This document shows positions 4,328 through 61,109 of a DNA stretch of 64,000 nt, in pieces. The notes below the pieces were generated by a model. The model searched no databases. It was not told the DNA's origin and worked only from the letters and a program-made list of their open reading frames with translations. The DNA comes from Candidatus Kuenenia hertensis (GTDB lineage: Bacteria > Planctomycetota > Brocadiia > Brocadiales > Brocadiaceae), in NCBI GenBank assembly GCA_021646465.1, contig SOET01000006.1, forward strand, positions 1-64,000, given 5' to 3'. Each line of letters begins with the position of its first letter. Position 1 is the stretch's first letter. The position numbers were made by a program, and so were the translations under genes.

Positions 4328-4597
4328 TTGGACCAAAATAAAGATAAAGGGTATACGCAGTATCAAAAGAAGGTTATCAGGGGATTTTATGAGAATAAAG
4401 ACCTGAGACTGATACAAAAATTAGGAGAATTGGTTTCTGATATGTATCTTATAACGGATGAAAAGAAGAAAGAATCCGGCTGGAAAAGAATAAAGAAAAT
4501 CTTGATAGATTTAAAGGTACATACAAATGAAGTAGAATACCTGATTCGAGACAGAAATCTTGCTGCTATATCAAGAAAAATAGAAGAATTATTCTAA
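4328..4597 (+). CDS. Small hypothetical protein downstream of trpA
   Basis: An 89-residue charged, helical, Lys/Glu-rich protein with no signal peptide or membrane segment. It would start at TTG (4328), with a weak purine-rich CAGGGAAA upstream; the first ATG lies about 38 codons further in. It follows trpA by 38 bases in the same direction and is probably co-transcribed. I do not recognise the family. The sequence is consistent with a small helical-bundle cytosolic protein, function unknown. Confidence 0.55.
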   Translation: MDQNKDKGYTQYQKKVIRGFYENKDLRLIQKLGELVSDMYLITDEKKKESGWKRIKKILIDLKVHTNEVEYLIRDRNLAAISRKIEELF

Positions 4598-4679
4598 CGG
4601 AAACAAAAATTCCATTCTATTTATAACCAATTCCTTATCCTGTTGATAAGGTAAAATATTGCCGACCACTAATTCTGAA

Positions 4680-5639
4680 TTATTTCTTTTTTTGCAACTT
4701 TAACTGTTTATCGTACAAAGAAAAATAATTTTTTGCTTCTTCTTCCATTCCTTTTGCTTTGTATACCTTACCGAGATCGTTATATGCTTCAATGTTGCCG
4801 GGATTTGCCATAAGAGATATCTCAAAAGCGTTAATTGCCTCGTCATATTGCTTTTTCTTGAAATAATTTATTCCTAACCGGTATTGAGCAGTCGCATTGC
4901 TTGAATTGCATTCTACAGTTTTATTATAAAATGTAGTTGCTTCATCAATTTTCCCCATATTTTCATAAAGAAATGCAATATTAAATAGCGTTTCTTCATG
5001 GTAGGGATTTATTACCAATGCCTTATTGTATTCAGCTAAAGCCTCCTTGTTCATTCCTTTCATTGTATAGACCAAGCCTAAATTAGAATATGTTATTGCT
5101 AAATTAGGGTCCTGTTCGATTCGTTTTTTAAGCATCCTGATTGCTTCGTCATATTTGCCACTTTTTGCATATGAAATACCCAATAAAGAATATGCTACTT
5201 TATAATCAGGATTCATTTCTATCGCTTTCTTAAAATATTGAATTGCAGGTTCGTATTTCTCCGTATCAAAATAAACCGTACCAAGTTTAAAATACACTTC
5301 AGGTTGGTCAGGATTTAATTTCAGGACTTTTTGAAATATTTCAATAGCTTCGGCATCCATTCTTTTTTCTATGTACACGTCTCCAAGGCTAATACAGGTT
5401 TCAATATTATCCGGGTCAGTAGCAAGTGATTTTTCGAATAATTCGATTGCTTCATCATGTAACCCGTACTTTGCGTATTCTAATCCTTGTAAATATAATT
5501 CGTGGGCTATGTTTATATGGGAAAGCAACCGGCCTTTTTCGGAGTTTGCATAAATCACAGAACAGTGCAAAGCACCTGTTAAAAATATTATTGCAAGATT
5601 ATATGTTATAGTTGACTTGAAAAATCTTAAAAAATTCAC
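4680..5639 (-). CDS. Exported TPR repeat protein
   Basis: The 319-residue protein has a hydrophobic N-terminus (about residues 9-31, ending near YAN), probably a signal peptide or membrane anchor. About seven tetratricopeptide repeats follow (about 40-310), with repeated patterns such as A-x-x-L-G-x-x-Y and P-x-x-x-x-A-Y. TPRs form a superhelical protein-binding scaffold, so a role in assembling envelope or anammoxosome complexes is possible but unproven. The gene stands alone, transcribed leftward and convergent with the trp genes. Such proteins are abundant in anammox genomes. Confidence 0.85.
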   Translation of the reverse strand: MNFLRFFKSTITYNLAIIFLTGALHCSVIYANSEKGRLLSHINIAHELYLQGLEYAKYGLHDEAIELFEKSLATDPDNIETCISLGDVYIEKRMDAEAIEIFQKVLKLNPDQPEVYFKLGTVYFDTEKYEPAIQYFKKAIEMNPDYKVAYSLLGISYAKSGKYDEAIRMLKKRIEQDPNLAITYSNLGLVYTMKGMNKEALAEYNKALVINPYHEETLFNIAFLYENMGKIDEATTFYNKTVECNSSNATAQYRLGINYFKKKQYDEAINAFEISLMANPGNIEAYNDLGKVYKAKGMEEEAKNYFSLYDKQLKLQKKK

Positions 5640-5898: not shown

Positions 5899-6147
5899 AT
5901 GTTAAATGCAATGGCGAGGGTAGCGGATAATACAAATGTTGTTGCAAATATTGCAGCACTTGTACCGCACTATAATCCCAAAAAAGAAGCTGTTCGGAAG
6001 ATGAACCAGGTTCAGCCATCAAACCACTCTAACAAATCTAATGTTCGCAACAAGGGAGAAAAGGATTCGCCACAGGCGGAAAAATACAAATCAAAAGGGA
6101 CTGATACTAAGTATAATGTGAATTCACACATTGACCTTGTCGTTTAG
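5899..6147 (+). CDS. Small hypothetical protein, Asn/Lys-rich
   Basis: An 82-residue protein with an alanine/valine-rich first third and a polar middle rich in Asn, Ser and Lys (about 30-70), likely disordered. It ends in a short hydrophobic tail (HIDLVV). No domain is recognised. GGGCAAG lies 5 bases before the ATG and could serve for ribosome binding. It lies alone between two leftward genes, so it should have its own promoter. It could be a real small gene or a chance open frame. Confidence 0.4.
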   Translation: MLNAMARVADNTNVVANIAALVPHYNPKKEAVRKMNQVQPSNHSNKSNVRNKGEKDSPQAEKYKSKGTDTKYNVNSHIDLVV

Positions 6148-6207
6148 AAAAAGCTTTATCTTTCTTTTTCATAAAGTGATTGTTTTAATATTTTTTCTCC
6201 GACAATT

Positions 6208-6939
6208 TCAGCTGTCTGTTTTTTCTGAAGGCCAGTAATAAGCATCGGGAGTATTTCTTGCTCCGAAAATTGCGGTGCCGATTCTCACCATATTTGACCC
6301 TTCCTCAATTGCGATCTGATAATCATTTGTCATTCCCATTGAAAGGTAGTTCATTTGTACTTTATCAATACCTTCTTGTACGATATTGTCAAAAAGTTTT
6401 TTTAATACTTTGAAGCATTTACGAATTTTTACTTCATCCCTGGTAAATAATCCGATAGTCATGAGGCCGCGAATATTTAATGTATCGTATTTCGAAACTT
6501 CTTTTATTAAAGATACTGCCTTTTCCGGTTCAACACCATACTTACTCTCTTCATAGGAGGTATTGACTTGTATAAGGATGTCGAGGGAACGACCTTCCTG
6601 CATGAGTCGATGGTCGAGTTTTTCTACCAGTGGAAGCCTGTCTACTGAATGTATCATATTTGCAAATTTTAGAGCATCTTTTGCTTTATTTGACTGCAAA
6701 TGTCCGATGAAATGCCATTCTACCTTTTCATCTTTTAACTCCTGGTATTTTTTTAACGCTTCCTGTATTTTATTTTCACCAATTATATTGCCACCCGCCT
6801 GTATCGCTTCCCGTATCCGATTAACATCTACCGTTTTAGTGGCCATAACGAGAATAATATCTTCTGGCTTTTTTCCCACTTTTAAAGCGGCGGTTGCAAT
6901 ATTTTGTTTTACCTTCTCCATATTTTCCTTAATAGACAT
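6208..6939 (-). CDS. yggS: YggS/PROSC family pyridoxal phosphate homeostasis protein
   Basis: A cytoplasmic PLP-binding single-domain TIM-barrel protein that buffers free PLP and amino-acid pools. Family features are the PLP lysine in the VMATKT strand near the N-terminus, the IGENKIQEALKK segment, EWHFIGHLQSNKAK, and the C-terminal LSMGMTNDYQIAIEEGSNMVRIGTAIFG region. The open frame begins at 6978, but the ATG at 6939 has a strong GGGGAG Shine-Dalgarno and gives the usual N-terminus, so it is preferred (243 residues). It lies 31 bases downstream of the phosphohexomutase stop and is probably co-transcribed with it. Confidence 0.9.
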   Translation of the reverse strand: MSIKENMEKVKQNIATAALKVGKKPEDIILVMATKTVDVNRIREAIQAGGNIIGENKIQEALKKYQELKDEKVEWHFIGHLQSNKAKDALKFANMIHSVDRLPLVEKLDHRLMQEGRSLDILIQVNTSYEESKYGVEPEKAVSLIKEVSKYDTLNIRGLMTIGLFTRDEVKIRKCFKVLKKLFDNIVQEGIDKVQMNYLSMGMTNDYQIAIEEGSNMVRIGTAIFGARNTPDAYYWPSEKTDS

Positions 6940-6970
6940 ATCAACTCCCCTGTTAAAATAACATTGCTTT

Positions 6971-8596
6971 CTATTCAAGTACCTCTTTAGTAATAGATTT
7001 TACAGTATCGATCATTGCAGGCAATTCTTTTTGAGATCTGGTTTCTATATAAAATCTCACTTTCGGTTCAGTTCCAGATGGTCGCACCAAAAACCACGAA
7101 TTATCATCCAGTATAATTTTAATACCATCCACAGTAATAACAGACGCAATTATTTTTCTTTCTCCTCCAATAGAAAGCTCTCTGCCTATTTTAAATTTTT
7201 CGACTAAATGAGAAAGTTTTTTGGCGAGGGGGGCTCCTGCCAGAGATCGTTCAACCTCAATTCCAGCCCTTTCCGGATAATATGCGCCAAACTCTTCTTC
7301 CAGCCCGCTAAGATATTCACTGATATTTTTTCCGGTAACTGCCATCATCTCAAGCGCAATCAAAAGTCCAAACAAGGCGTCTTTCTCAAGGGTATTGTTA
7401 TATCCTGAAATTCCGTCACTCTCTTCATAAGATACAATAGCTCTGTCCCTGGCATTTTGCAGCATATAGGGGCGGAAATTCTTAAATCCTACTGCTGTTT
7501 CCTTTATCGGAATACCCAGTTTTTGGGCAATTGCATTACCAAAATTACTTGTTGCCACCGATTTTACCAATACACCGGAAAGGTTTTTATACGTGTACAG
7601 AAAGTGAAGAACCATTGCGCCAAAATGATTCATTGTTATGTCTCTGTTTCCGTCAGTGAATCTTATTCGATCTCCATCCGGGTCCATGATTACACCTAGT
7701 TTAAACCTGTTTTTTCTTTCTTTCAGCGCGTCCATTACCAATTGTAAGTTCCTGGCAGAAGGTTCGGGTGGAATCCCACCAAACAAATAGTCGTCTTCCG
7801 TTCTCAAGTAAGATATTTTATCGCTTTCTCCCAAAAGTAGTGATGGCTTTTTTCGTGTTGCACCGTGAACATGATCTATACAAATAAAACAATCTTCTTT
7901 TTGAATGAAACTCCTTATTTTTTCAATGTTCAACGTACCACGCTGTCTAAGAAAGTTTTCATAAAGCTTTATGGTATTAATTTTCTCTACTTTTTTTGGT
8001 AAAATCTCCGGTATAATTTTGTTGTTCGCCATTAATTGATTTGCTTTTTTTTCGATAATATTTGTAATCTCTATGCCTGCGGGGCCTCCATCCGCAGGAT
8101 TAAATTTAAACCCTGCATAATTGGCAGGGTTATGTGAAGGCGTTAAATTTATTGCAGCTGCGGCATTCAACATTTCAATTGAGGCAGACAATTCAGGCGT
8201 GGTTGCTTCACCCGCATAATAGACCTGTATTCCTTCCCTTGCCAACAACCCCATAACAGAATTTGCGAATTCCGGTCCAAGGAATCTGTTGTCATGTCCC
8301 ACAATTACGCCCCGTTTTTTTATCTCTTCGAAATTCTTAACTCCTAATGCATTCAATAATTCCGCGTTTATGTTTTTGAACATTTCAATTATTGCAGTAG
8401 TTACAATACGTACATTATTGAAGGTGTAATCTGTGCCAATCTCTCCTCTCCACCCGGACGTTCCAAAAACAATATTTGTCGGAGCGGTGTTTTCTTTCGC
8501 AAATTTTTTAATTTCGCTCAGTAAGCTGGCGTTTCCTTTTACGTCAGACATGATAGAACGCCAACATTCTTCTGCATTCTTAAAATGATATGCCAT
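6971..8596 (-). CDS. Alpha-D-phosphohexomutase (phosphoglucomutase/phosphomannomutase)
   Basis: Interconverts sugar 1- and 6-phosphates for glycogen or cell-surface polysaccharide synthesis. The four-domain family layout is visible. GTSGWRGEIG near residue 45 is the N-terminal signature. TPSHNP carries the phosphoserine (S154). DPDGDRIRF is the Mg2+-binding loop. YEESDG is the sugar-binding loop, and RPSGTEPKVRFYIE is the C-terminal phosphate-binding loop. At 541 residues it is somewhat longer than bacterial ManB and close to the PGM2/PgcA-like branch. Whether glucose or mannose is preferred cannot be read from the sequence. GGGAGAAA precedes the start. Confidence 0.9.
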   Translation of the reverse strand: MAYHFKNAEECWRSIMSDVKGNASLLSEIKKFAKENTAPTNIVFGTSGWRGEIGTDYTFNNVRIVTTAIIEMFKNINAELLNALGVKNFEEIKKRGVIVGHDNRFLGPEFANSVMGLLAREGIQVYYAGEATTPELSASIEMLNAAAAINLTPSHNPANYAGFKFNPADGGPAGIEITNIIEKKANQLMANNKIIPEILPKKVEKINTIKLYENFLRQRGTLNIEKIRSFIQKEDCFICIDHVHGATRKKPSLLLGESDKISYLRTEDDYLFGGIPPEPSARNLQLVMDALKERKNRFKLGVIMDPDGDRIRFTDGNRDITMNHFGAMVLHFLYTYKNLSGVLVKSVATSNFGNAIAQKLGIPIKETAVGFKNFRPYMLQNARDRAIVSYEESDGISGYNNTLEKDALFGLLIALEMMAVTGKNISEYLSGLEEEFGAYYPERAGIEVERSLAGAPLAKKLSHLVEKFKIGRELSIGGERKIIASVITVDGIKIILDDNSWFLVRPSGTEPKVRFYIETRSQKELPAMIDTVKSITKEVLE

Positions 8597-49015: not shown

Positions 49016-49653
49016 AAAATGAAATGTGTATCCAATAAACTAACAAAAACTGTAATACCTTTTACCAGATTTAACCCTGTGAATGCAATGATTCCTTTTC
49101 TTTATAAAGGGAAAAGTATCTCCTTTTTTTACAACTTCATGAAAAAATATCAGATGGCATCACAATCTTCATTCTTTGCTATTTGCAATCTTTTACTCAA
49201 CAAATTTAGGAATAACCACCTATCAAACTATCACGAACAAACATACCCTCACAATAATACTTTCTTTTGAGCCTATTCTTTTAGGTACACCCATTTTAGG
49301 GCATTGAAAAGAAGAAGAACACCCGTACAATTATGTAATTATGGTACCAATATTAAATACAAGACGCTCTTTTACCAATTTTGTATTACGCGATTTTTTG
49401 AATAATCTGATGCTTAAAAACTCTATGTTAATTGATATTAAAGGCAAGCAATTTTTAACATTGCGGAAAATAATTTAAAAACAATGTTCGTCTAAAAAAT
49501 ACCATGCGACTAAGCGCGAACCATAGTTGTTGGAAATGGCACTCATTCATAAAACATATATTGATTACATATTTTATTGCCAGTTTTTTCGGTTTTTTAA
49601 TATGCCCTATGGGTATCAGTATCTGTTTTCGCAATTACCGATCTTGGTTTTCG
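49016..49653. other. Intergenic region upstream of the accessory block
   Basis: About 640 AT-rich bases. Open frames here (49019, 49527) have no ribosome-binding site or protein-like sequence. I see nothing else clearly functional; it separates the housekeeping-type neighbourhood from the IS remnant. Confidence 0.4.
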
Positions 49654-49986
49654 TTATCGAAAACTCAGTTGATGAAAAAAATTTTGACGCTGGCGAACCT
49701 TCAACTCTACGTGAAATTTCTTTTCAAAATGGTAGCTCAACAATTTACCATCCCACAAATTTTGCATATATTTATATTCGCTAGGGAACAAACGGAGACA
49801 CCATGCGGTAATCCGTCGCTCTTCCTCGGAAAGTCGAGAACGCCTTCCGGAGCGGGCAGCATTGCGCAAGCCTTCAATTCCAGTATCATTAAAACGCTTC
49901 TTCCGATGTTGAACAGTTCGTACACCATCTCCAAAAAAGCGCAACAACCTCAGCGCATTTTTTCTATGGCAGATCAAAAAAAACAA
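49654..49986 (-). pseudogene. IS630-type transposase N-terminal remnant
   Basis: On the minus strand a 110-residue frame has the helix-turn-helix and linker of IS630-like transposases: VRTVQHRKKRFNDTGIEGL followed by RSGRRSRLSEEERRI. The DDE catalytic domain is missing, so this is a truncated relic. It overlaps the start of the coiled-coil lipoprotein on the opposite strand and makes the plus-strand open frame there look artificially long. It marks an old insertion at the left edge of the accessory block. Confidence 0.65.
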
Positions 49987-50442
49987 TGGAGGAAAATCAT
50001 TAGAAAAAATGGCTTGGTGTGCGTGATAACTTTCGTTTTATTTCTCATGGTATCATGTGGTAATGAAAAATCAGAAAAAACAGAAACTGAAATAACTGCA
50101 AAAAATGTCCAACGTAAGACACAAGAAACCCTTGAAACAACGCAGGCTTACCTAAAACAGGGGCAGGAAAAATTTGCAATGGATATAGAATACAAACTGA
50201 ATGCTATTGAAGAAAAAATAGAACAATTAGAAAAAAGGGCAGAAAATGCTACAGCAGAGACAAAAGATAAATATAATGAAATAGTTGAAGAGCTACATCA
50301 GAGACGTGATGTTGCGCGAGATAAATTAGATGAATTAAAGTCTGCTGGTATAGACGTCTGGGAAGATCTTAAATTCGGAATGAATGTTGCTTACACTGAT
50401 TTAGAGAACTTTTTTAACAAAGCTGTATCTGAGTTCCAATAA
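49966..50442 (+). CDS. Coiled-coil lipoprotein
   Basis: The 158-residue lipoprotein has a basic N-terminus, hydrophobic stretch and lipobox LMVSC (C32). A long coiled coil follows (about 50-130), and the C-terminal LKSAGIDVWEDLKFG matches the protein encoded at 55854. The continuous open frame begins at 49504, but its first 154 codons run antisense to a transposase remnant, so the start is set at the ATG at 49966. No good ribosome-binding site precedes it, so expression may have been disturbed by the insertion. Confidence 0.65.
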   Translation: MADQKKQWRKIIRKNGLVCVITFVLFLMVSCGNEKSEKTETEITAKNVQRKTQETLETTQAYLKQGQEKFAMDIEYKLNAIEEKIEQLEKRAENATAETKDKYNEIVEELHQRRDVARDKLDELKSAGIDVWEDLKFGMNVAYTDLENFFNKAVSEFQ

Positions 50443-50859
50443 AGAGGCAAAAAACGAAATACCCTTAATAGGGAAATCATGTCGGGTTTTTAATCATTAT
50501 TTACAGGATTTGTTACCTTTTTCAATACAAGAATATCAAATTGAAAAAGCCTGGCATCGCTTTTCAATCGGTGTTTTCAAAAAACTAAAGTGTTACGATT
50601 CTTCATTATCGAACCTTAATTGTGAAAAACATGATTATTTTAGGTTTAAGTTGTATTTTTCAGCCTTTACTCCATGTTAAGAATTAAGCTATTTTTCTTT
50701 GCAGAAACTTTGTTCTTTTAATGAAAAACACTTAAAGTACTACTGAAATGTATATGCTGTAAATGATACAGTTTACTAAAATATTGTTCAAAATATTTTG
50801 TCATGTGACGAAGAATTCAAACTAAAATTAAATCAAAAAAATTAACAAGAGGGGTAAAA
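50443..50859. other. Intergenic region upstream of the P460 lipoprotein
   Basis: 417 bases, AT-rich. Near 50757-50771 is a small dyad, CTGTA-AATGA-TACAG, nested in GTAAA...TTTAC. It could be a regulator site for the P460 gene. No near-consensus promoter is visible. Confidence 0.35.
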
Positions 50860-52560
50860 ATGAAAAAATATTTATTATCATTATTAGTTGTGATTGCAAT
50901 TGGTTTTTCCCCCATAATAGGATGTAAGAAGATAGGCAAGGGATATAAATCTGAAGAATCAACAGAAACGGCCAAAGAAAGAACAACTGAATCTGATACA
51001 GAAAAATCACTTTCCGTTTCTGAAGAAGAAAGAACTGAAATTACAGGAAAAGGAACATCTTTAGAGCCGGAGAAAGGATTGTCTGAAACAGAAAAAACAG
51101 AAATCATGATAACAGATGTTGAGAGGATAGCGAAGGAACTTTGGGATACGATACACAAAGAGAATTACAAACTTAATTGGAAGTTATGGCCAGATACGGA
51201 AGACTTTCATAAAGGAAGGAAACCACATGGGGAATTGCTAACTACCTATGTTAATGATATTGCTTATGATGCAATTAAAAATAAGAAAGGAAAGCTGGAT
51301 GCTGGATCGATAATTATTACTGAGAATTATACATCAGATAGAAACATTATTTTTGTAACAGTAATGCAGAAAATAAATGGTTTCAATCCACTTGCAAATG
51401 ATTGGTTTTGGGTAAAATATGAAACTAACGGTGAAATTACTGCTGTTATAAAGGACAATAAGACATTGAAATTGGCTGGAAATGTTGCTGATTGTATTGA
51501 ATGCCACATCTTGCAGACCGATAACGATTATCTTTACACGAGCCCCATTATTGATATAGAAAAAGTAATTCTCGATACAAAAAAGAAAGAAGAAGAAATT
51601 GCGAATGTGGAAAGGCTGGCTGCTGAAATCTGGAATAAAATAAAGAGTGACAATTACCCGGAAACTTGGAAAATGTGGCCAGGTAAAGAGGCTTTTTATA
51701 ATGGAATCGATCCGCATGGAACATTATTGAACACATATGTAAATGAAGTAGCTTATGAATCAATTATACAGGAGAAAGAGTCCATACCTTACGATGCTGT
51801 CATCGTTACAGAAAACTATATGTTTGATAAAAATCTGGAATTCATTACCGTGATGAAGAAGATAAAGGGTTTTGACCCAGAAAACAATGATTGGTTTTGG
51901 ATCAAGTTTAAACCAAATGGTGCGATAATAACCGAAGAAAAGTACGGAGAAACTATTCCTTTGGCAGGTAAAGTCGATACCTGCATAACTTGTCACAAAA
52001 ACCAGTCTCTTAATGATTATATTTATACAAGTTTTACAAAGGGTATTACAAAAAAAGAAATAACCGAAGAAAAACCAGAAGGTACAGAGCGTGTTTATGA
52101 ATTAATGGCGAAAGAACTATGGGAAATCATGCAAAATGAGAAGTATCGTGAAAACTGGAAAATGTGGCCAGGGAAAACCGCTTTTTATGAAGGGACAGAA
52201 CCACATGGGTTTTGGCTTACCACATATGTAAACGATCTCGCCCATGAGGCAATTAAACATAAGAAAGGTGAATTACAACCAGGCGCAATAATAATTAAAG
52301 AGAATTACAGAAAGGATAAAAACATTGATTCTATAACGGTAATGCAGAAAATAAAAGGTTTTGATCCTGATGCAAAGGATTGGTTCTGGGTTAAATATGA
52401 ACCGAATGGTGACGTTATGGTCATAGAGAAAGAAGAAGATGGGAAAACGAAGACCATCAAGCTTGCCGGCAAGCTGTCACCATGTATTAAATGCCACGGA
52501 ACTCAGACCAGCAATGATTATATTATGACAACTCCTTTAAAATTATTGCATACTTACTGA
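50860..52560 (+). CDS. Lipoprotein with three tandem cytochrome P460 domains
   Basis: The 566-residue outer-surface or periplasmic lipoprotein has a lipobox IIGC with C22. An acidic Ser/Thr/Glu-rich linker (about 25-85) follows, then three P460-type domains (about 86-228, 249-391, 411-559). Each has the family WP...HG...TYVN, ENY, GF.P...DWFW and a C-terminal heme motif: CIECH (212-216), CITCH (375-379), CIKCH (542-546). Cytochrome P460 oxidises hydroxylamine or binds NO. In Nitrosomonas P460, Lys70 bonds to the heme. By my alignment domain 3 keeps it (K480 in IIIKENY), while domains 1 and 2 have threonine (T154, T317). Confidence 0.85.
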   Translation: MKKYLLSLLVVIAIGFSPIIGCKKIGKGYKSEESTETAKERTTESDTEKSLSVSEEERTEITGKGTSLEPEKGLSETEKTEIMITDVERIAKELWDTIHKENYKLNWKLWPDTEDFHKGRKPHGELLTTYVNDIAYDAIKNKKGKLDAGSIIITENYTSDRNIIFVTVMQKINGFNPLANDWFWVKYETNGEITAVIKDNKTLKLAGNVADCIECHILQTDNDYLYTSPIIDIEKVILDTKKKEEEIANVERLAAEIWNKIKSDNYPETWKMWPGKEAFYNGIDPHGTLLNTYVNEVAYESIIQEKESIPYDAVIVTENYMFDKNLEFITVMKKIKGFDPENNDWFWIKFKPNGAIITEEKYGETIPLAGKVDTCITCHKNQSLNDYIYTSFTKGITKKEITEEKPEGTERVYELMAKELWEIMQNEKYRENWKMWPGKTAFYEGTEPHGFWLTTYVNDLAHEAIKHKKGELQPGAIIIKENYRKDKNIDSITVMQKIKGFDPDAKDWFWVKYEPNGDVMVIEKEEDGKTKTIKLAGKLSPCIKCHGTQTSNDYIMTTPLKLLHTY

Positions 52561-52596: not shown

Positions 52597-52935
52597 ATGA
52601 AAAATAATTTAATAGTTATACTGTTTCTGTTGCTTAATCCCACTATTGCTTTTTCAGGAGAAATTTACGGAACGATAAAAAAAGATGGAAGGCCGATACC
52701 GGAAGGGTCAGAGATAAAAGTCGAAATGTTGACATCCGGAAAGACGTACTCTTCAAAATGTGCACAATATGGGTCATATTCATTGTATGTACCGGGGAAA
52801 GGACGTGGTCTTCTTATTATACAAAATGATGAATTAATATCAGAACCGATATTAATATATATCTATGAGAATGCTATCCAGTATGATTTCGTTTTAGAAG
52901 AAAAAAACGGTTCTTTCCCCGTAAGGAGAAAATAA
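52597..52935 (+). CDS. Small exported beta-rich protein (carboxypeptidase-regulatory-like)
   Basis: The 112-residue protein has a signal peptide (about 1-20) and a single beta-sandwich-like domain: GEIYGTIKKDGRPIPEGSEI and GSYSLYVPGKGRG. This is the pattern of carboxypeptidase-regulatory-like (transthyretin-type) domains. It lies 36 bases after the P460 lipoprotein and 2 bases before the first of the paired membrane proteins, so they are likely one operon. Confidence 0.65.
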   Translation: MKNNLIVILFLLLNPTIAFSGEIYGTIKKDGRPIPEGSEIKVEMLTSGKTYSSKCAQYGSYSLYVPGKGRGLLIIQNDELISEPILIYIYENAIQYDFVLEEKNGSFPVRRK

Positions 52936-52937
52936 GC

Positions 52938-53894
52938 ATGGGTGAGGAAGAAAAGGGGAAAGCAGAAAAAAATTTAGGTGCTAAATTTGAAAAATTTACT
53001 ACCCATTATCTCGGACCATGTGGAAGCCTGATTATTGCAACTGCAATACTTATTTCAGGTTATTTAGGCTCCAATTATTTAAAGGAACGGGCGGCAGCTA
53101 AAGCACGTACAGACAAAGGAGTGCTCACCATGGAGGCAATACAAATTTACTCCGATATGATGAGAGAACAAGAAGAGGCGGAAAATAATTTACGCAAAGA
53201 TATGTTTAATTCAAGTATGAAAGTGTTTTCTCTGCCGGACGCCTACGATCTTGAAGAGCAATTATTAAATCTGGAGCTTCTTGCTTTAAACTTTCATGAA
53301 ACTTTTAATTTGAAACCCTTTTTTCGTTTTATAAGAGAACAAATACCGGTTTCTTCAGTCTATGATCCAAAAGAGATGTATTTAACTCGTTTATATACCA
53401 CAGCAAAATCGATAATGAAAAAACAAATGATGATTGTGGAAGGAGAGGGTGAAAAATTCTCCCAAACGATAGATTTGGAACGGCTGGGACAAATTCAGGG
53501 AAGTCTTCAACTGGACGAAGAAAGTCTTGTTGTACAAGGGGTAAAGAGAAACTATAAAATTTATGTACAAAAAGCGAACTACGAATTAAAAGAAATATTG
53601 GTCAGGTTAGAAATAAGAACACAAAAAGAATCTTCAGAAGACATTGATACAAAAATTTCGGAGTGCCGGTTAGACTATTTTAATTTTCCTATGATTCATA
53701 ATGTTGTCCTGTCACACGATCAACGGTGTGCAGTCGTATTGAATGAATTTACAGAATCATGCGCCGATATTACACTAATAGCATTCCCAGGCTCTTTGGC
53801 CGTAAGGGGAAAACCGTATTATCAGGATGTGATTCAAAATCTCCTCGTAACGGGAAAATTATTTGATGAAAATATCAACAAAGAATTGTGGTAG
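52938..53894 (+). CDS. Single-pass membrane protein, first of a tandem paralogous pair
   Basis: A 318-residue protein of unknown family. Its N-terminus has one hydrophobic segment (LIIATAILISGYLGSNYL, about 32-49) preceded by a conserved GPCGS. A long soluble region (about 55-318) ends with YDP/HDQRCAVVLNEF, TESCADITLIAFPGSLA and the conserved GKPYYQDVIQNLLVTGKLF. The strongest identity with the next gene is at both ends. The function is unknown; the position next to the P460 lipoprotein suggests an anchored partner in the same complex. Confidence 0.7.
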   Translation: MGEEEKGKAEKNLGAKFEKFTTHYLGPCGSLIIATAILISGYLGSNYLKERAAAKARTDKGVLTMEAIQIYSDMMREQEEAENNLRKDMFNSSMKVFSLPDAYDLEEQLLNLELLALNFHETFNLKPFFRFIREQIPVSSVYDPKEMYLTRLYTTAKSIMKKQMMIVEGEGEKFSQTIDLERLGQIQGSLQLDEESLVVQGVKRNYKIYVQKANYELKEILVRLEIRTQKESSEDIDTKISECRLDYFNFPMIHNVVLSHDQRCAVVLNEFTESCADITLIAFPGSLAVRGKPYYQDVIQNLLVTGKLFDENINKELW

Positions 53895-53990: not shown

Positions 53991-54950
53991 ATGGAAGATA
54001 AGAATGAAGAAGAGAAGAATATTCAATATTGCAGCAGGAGAGAAAGACTTATCAATTGTTACATCGGGCCTTGTGGAAGCCTTTTTGTTGCAACGGCTAT
54101 CCTTGTTTCCGGATATTTAGGCTCCAATTATCTAAAGGAGCGGACGGCAGCAAAAGCTCGTATAGAAAGAGGAGTACTCACCATGGAGGCAATTCAAGTT
54201 TATTCCGGTATTATGAGAAAACAGGAAGAAGCAGAAAATAAATTGCGTGAAGACCTGTTTAATACAAATATAAAAATATTTTCCAAAACAGATACATTTA
54301 AACTGAATGAACAAATGTTAAATTTAGATATTATTGCAACTAATTTTCATGAAAGTTTTAATCTAAAACCATTTTTTGAATATATGAAAGAAAAAATATC
54401 TGCTTCTTCTCTATCCGATAGTATATATGGAGCGTATTTAGCGCGATTGTATCAAACCGCACAAACAATAATTCATAAACAGATGCTGATTCTGGAAGGA
54501 GCCGGAGATAAATTTTCACGAATGGTTGATATTGAACGGCTTAAACAAAGCCATGGGTCCCTTCAATTAGAAGAAGAGAACCTTATGGTAGAAGGTGTCG
54601 AGAGGAACTATAAAACGAGTGTAATAAAAGTCAACATCGAATCAAAAGAGATATTAGTCCGGCTGGAAGTCAGGACGATAAAGATGAATACTGCGGAAGT
54701 CATTAAAAAAACTACCGAGTTTTGGGTAAGCTTTTTTGATTTTCCTATGATTCATTATGTTACCCTGTCATATGATCAACGGTGTGCAATTGTGCTGAAT
54801 GAATTTACTGAAACATGTGCTGATATAACGCTTGTTACGTTTCCAGGCTCCCTTGCAATCAGGGGAAAGCCATATTATCAGGATACAATTCAAAACCTTC
54901 TTGTGACGGGCAAGTTATTTAATGAAACTAACAACAAAAAACAATGGTAG
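53991..54950 (+). CDS. Single-pass membrane protein, second of a tandem paralogous pair
   Basis: A 319-residue paralogue of the gene before it. It shares GPCGSLFVATAILVSGYLGSN with one membrane helix (about 32-50), then KERTAAKARIERGVLTMEAIQ and the C-terminal NEFTETCADITLVTFPGSLAIRGKPYYQD region. The middle is more diverged. The two arose by tandem duplication. I do not recognise the family. A gap of 96 bases separates them, so the second may have its own control. Confidence 0.7.
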   Translation: MEDKNEEEKNIQYCSRRERLINCYIGPCGSLFVATAILVSGYLGSNYLKERTAAKARIERGVLTMEAIQVYSGIMRKQEEAENKLREDLFNTNIKIFSKTDTFKLNEQMLNLDIIATNFHESFNLKPFFEYMKEKISASSLSDSIYGAYLARLYQTAQTIIHKQMLILEGAGDKFSRMVDIERLKQSHGSLQLEEENLMVEGVERNYKTSVIKVNIESKEILVRLEVRTIKMNTAEVIKKTTEFWVSFFDFPMIHYVTLSYDQRCAIVLNEFTETCADITLVTFPGSLAIRGKPYYQDTIQNLLVTGKLFNETNNKKQW

Positions 54951-55853: not shown

Positions 55854-56144
55854 ATGAATAAGAGAAAGGCATATGAAGAAAAGTTAGATGCACAACTAAG
55901 GGAATGGAGATCAAAGATTGAGAATTTAAAGGCCAAAGCGGACAAGGCAGATGCAGAAGCAAAGATAGAATACTATCGGAACATCGATTCATTGAAAAAT
56001 GACTATAACGCATTACAAGCTAAGCTCCTGCAGCTTAAGTCCGCAGCAGATGAATCATGGGAGGATATCAAAGCAGGATCAGAAACCGCATGGGAAGAAC
56101 TTAAGACCGCTTTCAGCAATGCAATGGCAAAATTCAAGGATTAA
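55854..56144 (+). CDS. Small coiled-coil protein
   Basis: The 96-residue, charged, all-helical cytoplasmic-type protein has repeated A-K-A-D-K-A-D-A patterns. Its second half, LKSAADESWEDIKAGSETAW, resembles that of the coiled-coil lipoprotein at 49966, so the two are paralogues, one lipidated and one not. GAGGAG lies 8 bases before the start. It is the last gene of the DUF1328-DUF3309 group. No enzymatic motif is present. Confidence 0.78.
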   Translation: MNKRKAYEEKLDAQLREWRSKIENLKAKADKADAEAKIEYYRNIDSLKNDYNALQAKLLQLKSAADESWEDIKAGSETAWEELKTAFSNAMAKFKD

Positions 56145-57802: not shown

Positions 57803-59641
57803 CTACTCACTGACAATTTTTTCGAAATCAACATCTCCCCTGTATTTTCTGAAATCGGGGCTACTACGAGCTACCTCTTTATATCGGTAATTTAACCGTA
57901 CCACTTTTTCCAATAAACTGAGGGCATCTTCTTTTTTCGAAAGCAAAGAAAGCGCACAGGCTTTATTAAATAATACCGCTTCAAAATCCGGTTTTATACG
58001 TAATGCGCTGTCATATATTCTTATTGCCTCCTCATGATTACCCATACTATCAAGCAAAAGCCCCTTATTGTTGATTGCTTCAAGAAAGTCAGGTTTTATC
58101 TGGAGCGCTTTGTTATAAGCATCAAGGGCTTCCCGGTGTTTCCCCGTTTCTTCCAGGACATAACCTTTGTAATTAAATGCCTCATATGCATTGTTTCCTA
58201 ATGATGCCGCTTTATCAAAGGCATTTAACGCTTCATTATAATCCTTCAAAAATGACAGGGAAATCCCTTTGTTCATCCATATACCAAAATCATCATTTTT
58301 AATTCTTAGTGCATTATTGTATACATTAACAGCATCAGCATACTTTTGGAGCTGGAGAAGCGCAATGCCCATATTTTGTAACGCTTCCAATTTGATTTTT
58401 GCCATGCGGGGGACATTCACCGCTTCTTCATCAGTAATAATTTGCCCTACCTTTTCAAACGACTTTATTGCCTCTTCAAGGCGCCCCATCCTGACCAGGG
58501 CATTCCCTTTGTTTTTCCATACCTGCGGATAATCCGGGCGCAATTCTATCGCCTTGTCGAATACCTTAATTGATTCGGCATAGCTTCCAAGATGAAACAA
58601 TTCACAGCCTTTATTCGTTATAGTCTCATATGAATCAGGCTGGATTTCCAATGCCTTTTCATATGCGGCAACAGCCTCTCTATGCTTTCTTAACCGTGAA
58701 AAGGCCAGTCCCATATTTGTCCATGCCCCGTAAGAATCCGGCTGTATCTCAATTGTCTTTTCATATGCTTCCAGTGCTTCCTCATACCTTCCTAAGGCGT
58801 CTAATGCGAGCCCTTTTCCATTCCACGCCGCATACGAACCTGGTTTTAACTCAATCGCTTTATTAAAGGCGTCCACGGCTTCTTCATGTTTCCCCAAATC
58901 AGCAAGAGTAAAGCCCTTATCCGCCCATGCCGCATGTTCTTTCGGCCTTATTTCTATTGCAGTATCATATGCGCTGATCGCTTCCTCATACCTGCGTAAC
59001 CGGACAAAACAATTTCCCTTGTTAATCCATGCCTCATAGTATACCGGATTTATTTCTATTGCCTTATCGTATGCCTCCAGCGCCTTTTCCCTATTTTCCG
59101 GAATTCTTGCCAAAGTCAAGCCTTTATTATTCCATGCTTCATATTCACCAGGTTTTAATTTCAGGATATAATCATACGTCTTAATTGCAGCTTCGATATC
59201 ACCTATATGATCCTGCACATTTCCCTTATTATACAAAAACATTAAAGTATCTGGTTTTATTTCTAACGCTTTATCAAACGCCTTTATTGCCTCATAATAC
59301 TTTCCCGCATGATCCGAAGCCCTTCCTTTCATATACCACGCTTCACAGTAATCCGGTTTATGCTTAATCGCCATATCAGAAGCTTCAATGGCTTCTTCAT
59401 AATTTCCCAGATAATCGAGTACAACGGCTTTATTATACCACGCCTCCGGCGCATCTGGTTTAATGGATATAGCACGTTCATACTCATTAAGCGCATCCTG
59501 ATAATTCTGTTTGCGTACAAGGATATTTCCCTTATTAATAAACTCCTCAAAATTTTCCAGAGCAAACACACCCCCGCCATGTACAGTACACATGAAAAAA
59601 ATGAAACTATTTACTATCAATACCTTTACTTTTTTTATCAT
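57803..59641 (-). CDS. Large exported TPR protein
   Basis: A 612-residue protein with a signal peptide (about 1-30) and roughly sixteen tetratricopeptide repeats. Most have the form Y-x-x-A-I-x-x-Y-D-x-A-I-E-I-x-P with A-W-x-N-K-G. The open frame begins at 59698, but the ATG at 59641 has a textbook GGAGGAGGT site 5 bases upstream and begins the signal peptide. It is a scaffold for protein assembly. The PLD/OB gene upstream ends 40 bases before the start, so they are probably co-transcribed. Confidence 0.88.
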   Translation of the reverse strand: MIKKVKVLIVNSFIFFMCTVHGGGVFALENFEEFINKGNILVRKQNYQDALNEYERAISIKPDAPEAWYNKAVVLDYLGNYEEAIEASDMAIKHKPDYCEAWYMKGRASDHAGKYYEAIKAFDKALEIKPDTLMFLYNKGNVQDHIGDIEAAIKTYDYILKLKPGEYEAWNNKGLTLARIPENREKALEAYDKAIEINPVYYEAWINKGNCFVRLRRYEEAISAYDTAIEIRPKEHAAWADKGFTLADLGKHEEAVDAFNKAIELKPGSYAAWNGKGLALDALGRYEEALEAYEKTIEIQPDSYGAWTNMGLAFSRLRKHREAVAAYEKALEIQPDSYETITNKGCELFHLGSYAESIKVFDKAIELRPDYPQVWKNKGNALVRMGRLEEAIKSFEKVGQIITDEEAVNVPRMAKIKLEALQNMGIALLQLQKYADAVNVYNNALRIKNDDFGIWMNKGISLSFLKDYNEALNAFDKAASLGNNAYEAFNYKGYVLEETGKHREALDAYNKALQIKPDFLEAINNKGLLLDSMGNHEEAIRIYDSALRIKPDFEAVLFNKACALSLLSKKEDALSLLEKVVRLNYRYKEVARSSPDFRKYRGDVDFEKIVSE

Positions 59642-59681
59642 GGTTACCTCCTCCAACTTGAAAAAACATAAAGCAACCAAA

Positions 59682-61109
59682 TTATTGATTTCTGCCAAAC
59701 AAGGTCAATATATCACCATCTTCTATAATATAAGGGATATCCAATCCCCATCTTTTGGTTAATTTCCCTTGATAGATTACCATATCACCCTCATTAAACC
59801 TCGATAGCTCATCTATTCTCGCTTTTTTAATCCTGAGCTCTAATTTACATTGCCCATCTTCCCCTTGTTCAAATCCAAACCGTAGACCATCGTTTGCATC
59901 CAAACGTTTGTATATGATTTTCCCCATCCAACTCAGGTATTTACCTTCAAATTTTTCCCACTTTTCTTTTTTTTGTTCTTCAGAAAATCTGCTCTCCTTG
60001 CAAAATATACCCTCCATATCCGTAAGCGTTTCTATGATATATTGTTTCCCGGGCCCCTGGCATAAGGTTGTCGTATAAGGGTCTGCGGTCAGTTCTTCAT
60101 ATGTTAGCGGTTCAGGCGCATCATCCTCAGTCCGAATTACATTACCGTCTGTGAGTTTATAGGGATACACTTTTGTTACCCGCGAACCAAGACATCCTGT
60201 GTATGTTGCAATATCACCATATTTAACATCTGCAAAGTTTTCCTTATGTTCCGGGTTCAGACTTACTTCCACGCTCGTATCACCATGGGTAATAGTCATT
60301 ATCCATCCATAAACGATTGTCCATCCAATATACTTGACCTTCCCACGCCACCTGACCCTCTTGCCCTCACACTTTTTCCATAAATTTTCCTTTTGCGTAT
60401 CCGATAAATCACTTATCATTCCAAATATTTTATCAAACTCCTCAAAATTCATGTCAATACAACCTTCGGCATTTTCAATAATCTTTATACCGTATTCCGA
60501 CGCAATCACTTTTCCTTCAGCGGATTCCTTCTCCGCAACTTCGGCTTCCGCTTCATCCTTTTTCCCCGATTCCTCCGTTAAATACCCCTGTTCTTTAAGA
60601 GACGGAACAATACCCTTGTGAAATAACCTGTCAAATTCCTTTTGATATTTCATCAACACCGGCATTTCATTTATAAAAATGCCATTTTCGCAATTAAATC
60701 TGCTTGTTTTTTCATACCATAGATAAGAACCGGTTACCAGCAATTGAGAATCAAAGATTGCATAATTGTTGCGCATAACACCCTTCTGAATCAATATCCT
60801 CACTGTAAACCCGTTTTCCTTGCAATGTTTTGACAATATCCCTTTCGAAAAAAAACGTTTTCTGTCGATAACAATCCTTATCTTAACCCCTCTTTCCTTT
60901 GCCCTGACAAGTGCATTTACAATATCAACCGAGGTAATGTTTATCGCTGCAATATCAATAGATTCACTGCATGTGTTTATTTCGCCAAGGATTTTCTCTT
61001 TGATTTCATCCGGTGTAAAATATACTTCTGATGAAAATGCCTTCTCTTGCATACATATAAGGCTTATAATCCCAGCAATAACAATTGCGTGAATCTTCTT
61101 CATATTCAT
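59682..61109 (-). CDS. Exported PLD-like protein with degenerate active site and two OB-like domains
   Basis: The 475-residue protein has a signal peptide (about 1-26), then a phospholipase D-like domain (about 30-170). The expected HxKxxxxD is replaced by RNNYAIFDSQLL, so the catalytic histidine and lysine are missing and a single half-domain remains. Two related OB/tRNA-anti-like domains follow (about 235-335 and 365-470), each beginning with E-x-x-x-x-W-x-K-x-E-G-K. A non-enzymatic, nucleic-acid or ligand-binding role is more likely than lipase activity. Confidence 0.75.
   Translation of the reverse strand: MNMKKIHAIVIAGIISLICMQEKAFSSEVYFTPDEIKEKILGEINTCSESIDIAAINITSVDIVNALVRAKERGVKIRIVIDRKRFFSKGILSKHCKENGFTVRILIQKGVMRNNYAIFDSQLLVTGSYLWYEKTSRFNCENGIFINEMPVLMKYQKEFDRLFHKGIVPSLKEQGYLTEESGKKDEAEAEVAEKESAEGKVIASEYGIKIIENAEGCIDMNFEEFDKIFGMISDLSDTQKENLWKKCEGKRVRWRGKVKYIGWTIVYGWIMTITHGDTSVEVSLNPEHKENFADVKYGDIATYTGCLGSRVTKVYPYKLTDGNVIRTEDDAPEPLTYEELTADPYTTTLCQGPGKQYIIETLTDMEGIFCKESRFSEEQKKEKWEKFEGKYLSWMGKIIYKRLDANDGLRFGFEQGEDGQCKLELRIKKARIDELSRFNEGDMVIYQGKLTKRWGLDIPYIIEDGDILTLFGRNQ

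Follow-up and report, generated by a model that had tools for sequence, protein, structure and literature searches.

The gene at 50860..52560 in the window (the whole 64,000-nucleotide stretch of Candidatus Kuenenia hertensis DNA that was analyzed) encodes a lipoprotein in which alignments showed three predicted P460-fold heme-c sites; only domain 3 has lysine at the cross-link position, and none of the three has the distal carboxylate. With moderate confidence, we regard the product as a triheme P460/c'-beta lipoprotein in which one heme is a probable Lys-heme and the other two are c'-beta-like, and that handles NO or possibly peroxide. Judged from its residues, NO or peroxide handling is more likely than hydroxylamine oxidation.

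Gene and domain architecture

The gene and its domains were located as follows.

50845 to 50856, + strand: likely ribosome-binding site, a purine-rich aacaagaggggt 5' of the ATG (read from the sequence)
50860 to 52560, + strand: triheme P460-superfamily lipoprotein, 566 aa (ORF; three PF16694 domains; orthologue in genome G031)
50860 to 50925, + strand: type II signal peptide and lipobox, MKKYLLSLLVVIAIGFSPIIG-C22 (sequence inspection)
51112 to 51549, + strand: domain 1; Lys70 position T154, Glu96 position T167, cap H123, CIECH at 212-216
51595 to 52038, + strand: domain 2; Lys70 position T317, Glu96 position T330, cap H286, CITCH at 375-379
52096 to 52542, + strand: domain 3; Lys70 position K480, Glu96 position T493, cap H449, CIKCH at 542-546

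The reading frame was intact and started with ATG. By inspection, the product had the type II signal peptide and lipobox cysteine of a bacterial lipoprotein (IIGC22), and the Gly-Cys of this lipobox was also found at the equivalent place in the Jettenia and Brocadia homologues. The initial annotation had described the protein as surface-anchored. A membrane anchor is indicated by the lipobox, and this part of the claim stands; a surface location does not follow from it, because the lipobox does not specify which anammox membrane is involved. The site of action would probably be a membrane facing the anammox redox compartment.

When the whole protein was searched against Pfam, Cytochrome_P460 (PF16694) was found in three stretches (E 1.5e-24, 87.2 bits; cut-off 27 bits), and each single domain scored 30-34.7 bits in the genome search against the same cut-off. 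There was one CXXCH motif per domain, and the domains were about half identical to one another (48-53% to domain 1). These results bore out the earlier description of three P460-type domains, each with its own CXXCH, in one lipoprotein. Besides the signal and the three domains, the 566-aa protein contained a charged linker roughly 60 residues long. Two further single-domain P460 proteins are encoded elsewhere in the same genome.

Residues at the cross-link, carboxylate, and cap positions

A script check placed T154 in SIIITENY, T317 in AVIVTENY, and K480 in AIIIKENY. In profile alignments with PDB sequences, this column aligned with Lys70 of NeP460 (TVTVKEL), Met79 of NeCP-beta, and Phe61 of both TtCP-beta and McCP-beta. 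These residues are structural equivalents in Table 2 of PMC11928373, and the cross-link column is thus anchored on four solved structures. The initial annotation had assigned K480, T154, and T317 to the Lys70 column by eye and had proposed alignment to PF16694 or characterized structures as a check; the profile alignments to NeP460, NeCP-beta, TtCP-beta, and McCP-beta confirmed the assignment, with K480 falling on Lys70. Lysine at the cross-link position (Lys70/Lys78/Lys106) was therefore present in domain 3, and Thr was present in domains 1 and 2.

The distal carboxylate is Glu96 in NeP460 and Asp102 in McP460 (PMC11928373, Table 2). Its column (Ala109 in NeCP-beta, Gly82 in TtCP-beta) fell on the Thr of the TVMxK motif, namely T167, T330, and T493, and the carboxylate was absent from all three domains, with no D or E within two residues. 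The NeP460 alignment has a one-residue ambiguity at this column, the alternative being Ile (Val in domain 1), and neither register gives a carboxylate. Domains 1 and 2, which have neither the cross-link Lys nor the distal carboxylate (T154/T167 and T317/T330), thus have the residue pattern of a cytochrome c'-beta. Moreover, each of the three domains had His at the cap position (Phe41 in NeP460, Phe29 in TtCP-beta) and, at the Arg44 position, Leu in place of the Arg or His that aids cross-link formation.

The initial annotation had also proposed structure prediction, and this gave a P460 fold for domain 3. In the AF2 model of this domain (pLDDT 86.3), strand 68-74 held the Lys and strand 80-88 the Thr of the following motif. 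Foldseek matched the model to 6hiu, 9hrk, 7ead, and 6hih, with McP460 (6hiu) on top; 6hiu, 7ead, and 6hih were matched at a probability of 1.00 and TM 0.50-0.59, and McP460 and the cytochromes c'-beta were the sole high-probability matches. The five-stranded beta fold with a C-terminal CXXCH site is indicated by this model for domain 3, and by sequence only for domains 1 and 2. The AF2 model of the full-length 566-aa protein (five sequences) was of low confidence (pLDDT 44, pTM 0.27). By profile, the best match among the solved structures was NeCP-beta (E 7e-7), a distant similarity.

Tandem P460 proteins and lysine evolution in Brocadiales

Tandem proteins of the triheme-gene subfamily were found in 10 of the 62 Brocadiales genomes, six of them triple and four double, all within Brocadiaceae. 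Their Lys-column states were as follows.

Triple-domain proteins: T/T/K in G000 and G031; T/A/K in G022; K/K/K in three Jettenia-group genomes
Double-domain proteins: E/K in G019; T/K in G026; K/K in G017 and G024

For these counts, L055, L057, L058, and L061 were left out as duplicates repeating L033, L039, L036, and L025. Lys was then present in every C-terminal domain of the tandem proteins (10/10, the weak single-domain matches L098 and L100 being excluded), whereas the upstream repeats had Lys in 8/16 and Thr, Ala, or Glu in the other 8/16. All 43 single-domain homologue sequences, some from duplicate records, also had Lys. When the tandem proteins were counted in the same way, no domain had a carboxylate in the Glu96 column, and most had Thr there.

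The triple architecture, again T/T/K, was found in G031, a genome of the same genus, with domain identities of 81-94%; because G031 is a single-contig assembly, the architecture is not an assembly artefact. In the domain tree, the C-terminal domains of the Kuenenia and Brocadia groups formed one clade (98/94), the upstream domains of G000, G031, and G022 another (95/94), and the Brocadia first domains a third (100/100), with the Jettenia domains lying apart. By these groupings, Lys has been lost at least twice and probably three times, in every case from an upstream repeat. When G000 was compared with G031, dN/dS was about 0.15, 0.20, and 0.10 for domains 1, 2, and 3, respectively, indicating purifying selection that was strongest in domain 3; the Lys-free domains are therefore maintained. 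The lysine asymmetry is biologically meaningful: the earlier observation that only domain 3 keeps Lys proved evolutionarily real, given the constant C-terminal Lys, the losses confined to upstream repeats, and the strongest selection on domain 3.

Decay of domains 1 and 2 was considered and rejected on their dN/dS values and their intact CXXCH motifs. Chance resemblance was likewise rejected, since all 10 C-terminal domains keep the Lys.

Relatives outside Brocadiales were single-domain (Nitrospira, Thermaceae, Dadabacteria, Desulfonatronospira, Desulfocarbo, and others) in a scan of 84,980 species genomes that used two short peptide patterns and is not exhaustive. No tandem version was found outside Brocadiaceae in a sample of 199 Planctomycetota genomes. 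The triheme protein probably arose by tandem duplication of this widespread single-domain P460 type, whose signature reads PHG ... KENY ... TVMxK ... WFW ... CXXCH.

Other arrangements of P460 genes were also seen. On L051, two single-domain P460 lipoproteins (4489-5094 and 7353-7994) lie on either side of a gene (5967-7238) whose homologue is immediately upstream of the triple-domain gene in Jettenia L040, L042, and L043; the L051 arrangement suggests a possible origin of the tandem copies. In G007, which belongs to another Brocadiales family, two separate P460 genes, each with a single domain of the Lys/Thr type, lie side by side (L032:1282-1833 and L032:1872-2393). A second, distinct tandem P460-fold family also occurs in Brocadiales (L006, L007, L008, L009, L010, L011, L012, and L014). 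Its members have two domains, in frames mostly of about 330-360 aa; the Lys position is occupied by Ile, Val, or Leu, the Glu96 position by Ala, and the cap by Tyr, and by these residues the family looks like a diheme cytochrome c'-beta.

Gene neighborhood

Three genes follow the cytochrome gene on the same strand.

52597 to 52935, + strand: signal-peptide protein, 112 aa; 36-nt gap after the cytochrome gene, probably same operon
52938 to 53894, + strand: protein of 318 aa, likely in the same operon; a single hydrophobic segment at the N terminus; of no known family
53991 to 54950, + strand: 319-aa paralogue of the preceding protein (about 62% identity), likewise with an N-terminal hydrophobic segment and of no known family

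The 112-aa protein matched no family above the cut-off and had an 89% identical counterpart at the equivalent place in G031. A homologue of the 318-aa protein adjoins the triheme gene in both G031 and G022, and the gene order is kept in G031. The family of the 318-aa protein was found in 8 of the 62 Brocadiales genomes, and in those of the 8 where it does not adjoin the triheme gene it lies away from P460 genes. In both Kuenenia and Brocadia, a small coiled-coil lipoprotein-like family was present in the vicinity of the cytochrome gene. Coiled-coil proteins with weak similarity to apolipoprotein repeats are encoded at 49504-50442 and 55854-56144 of the window; at the Brocadia loci L035 and L036, their homologues come directly after the double-domain P460 gene. 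The window also encodes a 631-aa protein composed almost wholly of TPR repeats (57803-59698, - strand).

The neighbors examined were sodium:alanine symporter, TPR, PLD-like, trypsin/PDZ, aminotransferase, and rubrerythrin proteins. No HAO, nitrite reductase (NirS), or hydrazine synthase (HZS)-type gene and no gene indicating NO was found among them; an operon link to nitrogen metabolism was sought there and was not found.

Proposed function and alternatives

We propose that the heme of domain 3 is, or can become, a low-potential P460 heme cross-linked to Lys, that domains 1 and 2 would hold plain c'-beta-like hemes with the distal side open or His-capped, and that the three hemes together may bind a small ligand and process it by redox chemistry, the likeliest ligand being NO, with peroxide also possible. 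In NeP460, formation of the cross-link requires peroxide and is influenced by Arg44; McP460 cross-links although it has no Arg so placed, and Arg44 is therefore not strictly defining. The Leu at the Arg44 position and the presumed anaerobic host count against a cross-link at K480.

The cap residue bears on a different reading, in which H123, H286, and H449 bind iron, the three hemes form a bis-His, low-spin electron wire, and the Lys is structural. A cap-position His could serve as an iron ligand and block ligand binding, and it is uncertain whether the distal cap His leaves a five-coordinate, NO/CO-binding heme in domains 1 and 2. All 16 upstream and all 10 C-terminal tandem domains have this His, as do most single-domain homologues, and three tandem hemes suit electron transfer. 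However, the cap column is Pro in 11 single-domain anammox sequences, showing that His is unnecessary for the fold; the cap residue (Phe or Arg) of the solved relatives is not an iron ligand (PMC11928373); and a wire would leave the constant retention of Lys in one domain unexplained. We consider an electron wire fairly unlikely.

Given that NeCP-beta, the nearest solved structure by profile, has guaiacol peroxidase activity, and that NeP460 Lys70Ala gains this activity while the wild type lacks it, we also considered a peroxidase-like or peroxide-scavenging lipoprotein. Its Lys-less, distal-His domains would act in the manner of NeCP-beta, and peroxide would also drive the K480 cross-link. 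The G031 locus contains a rubrerythrin gene, although this gene is not contiguous with the cytochrome gene and a conserved peroxidase neighbor is absent. With Jettenia keeping Lys in all three domains and the similarity to NeCP-beta only distant, such a role appears quite improbable.

A further reading, to which we give only a small chance, is that of a multiheme enzyme with a division of labor, in a single chain, between one heme cross-linked to Lys and two without it. In such an enzyme, a pocket in which His/Thr replaces the Glu would carry out NO, hydroxylamine, or peroxide chemistry by a novel route, unlike that of the single-domain cytochromes P460. The K/K/K, K/K, T/K, E/K, T/A/K, and T/T/K variants offer a natural series for this reading.

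Hydroxylamine metabolism is part of anammox, K480 falls on Lys70, and the Lys is invariant among C-terminal domains; nevertheless, it is very unlikely that domain 3 is an active NH2OH-oxidizing P460 heme whose electrons are relayed by domains 1 and 2, because Thr takes the place of the Glu96/Asp102 carboxylate in every domain, NsP460, with Lys and no carboxylate, is inactive, and the same type of domain is present in organisms that are not known to metabolize hydroxylamine. In the known NH2OH-oxidizing cytochromes P460, the Lys and a precisely placed carboxylate are both required, and only A131E restores activity to NsP460 (PMC11928373). As aligned, domain 3 holds one of these two features established as necessary, and hydroxylamine oxidation of the NeP460 type is not expected. 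The initial annotation had proposed one catalytic P460 heme and had argued from the presence of hydroxylamine in anammox. The catalytic claim outruns the evidence; the anammox-specific argument is weakened because the Lys/Thr/His single-domain type is common to sulfate reducers, Thermaceae, Dadabacteria, and Nitrospira, and because no HAO/NirS/HZS-type gene was seen nearby.

Comparison with known systems

The cytochromes P460 and c'-beta solved or reviewed in PMC11928373 are single-heme domains, mostly from proteobacteria and Thermus. The terms 'tandem', 'diheme', and 'Planctomyc' are absent from the text of that paper, and the literature searched yielded no description of a tandem P460 protein from anammox bacteria. 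Like NeP460 of Nitrosomonas europaea (2je3) and McP460 of Methylococcus capsulatus (6hiu), the triheme protein has the PF16694 fold, CXXCH, and, in domain 3, a Lys at the cross-link position; unlike them, it is a lipoprotein that combines three domains, of which domain 3 alone has the Lys, and it lacks Glu96/Asp102 and has a His cap and Leu at the Arg44 position. NsP460 (6amg, from Nitrosomonas sp. AL212), a type called a 'halfway house' in PMC11928373, resembles domain 3 in having Lys without the distal carboxylate, but it is single-domain, with Ala at the carboxylate position and a Phe cap where the triheme protein has Thr and His. Domains 1 and 2 are like NeCP-beta (7s5o), McCP-beta (6hih), and TtCP-beta (7ead) in lacking both the cross-link Lys and the carboxylate, whereas those cytochromes are single-domain and have Met or Phe at the Lys position and a hydrophobic or Arg cap, in place of the Thr and His found here. 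The Brocadia doubles (about 350 aa) and the Jettenia triples share the domain type, the lipobox, and the tandem plan; the Jettenia proteins differ in having Lys in all three domains, and domain 1 of the Brocadia doubles varies among E, T, and K.

Taken together, the protein arranges a known fold in a new way and is not a proven hydroxylamine oxidase. In this one anammox polypeptide, a domain with Lys is combined with two that lack it, and its relatives range from all-Lys to one-Lys. With the fold and pocket otherwise alike, this Lys series could reveal the role of the heme-lysine bond and, possibly, an uncharacterized NO or redox function in anammox cells.
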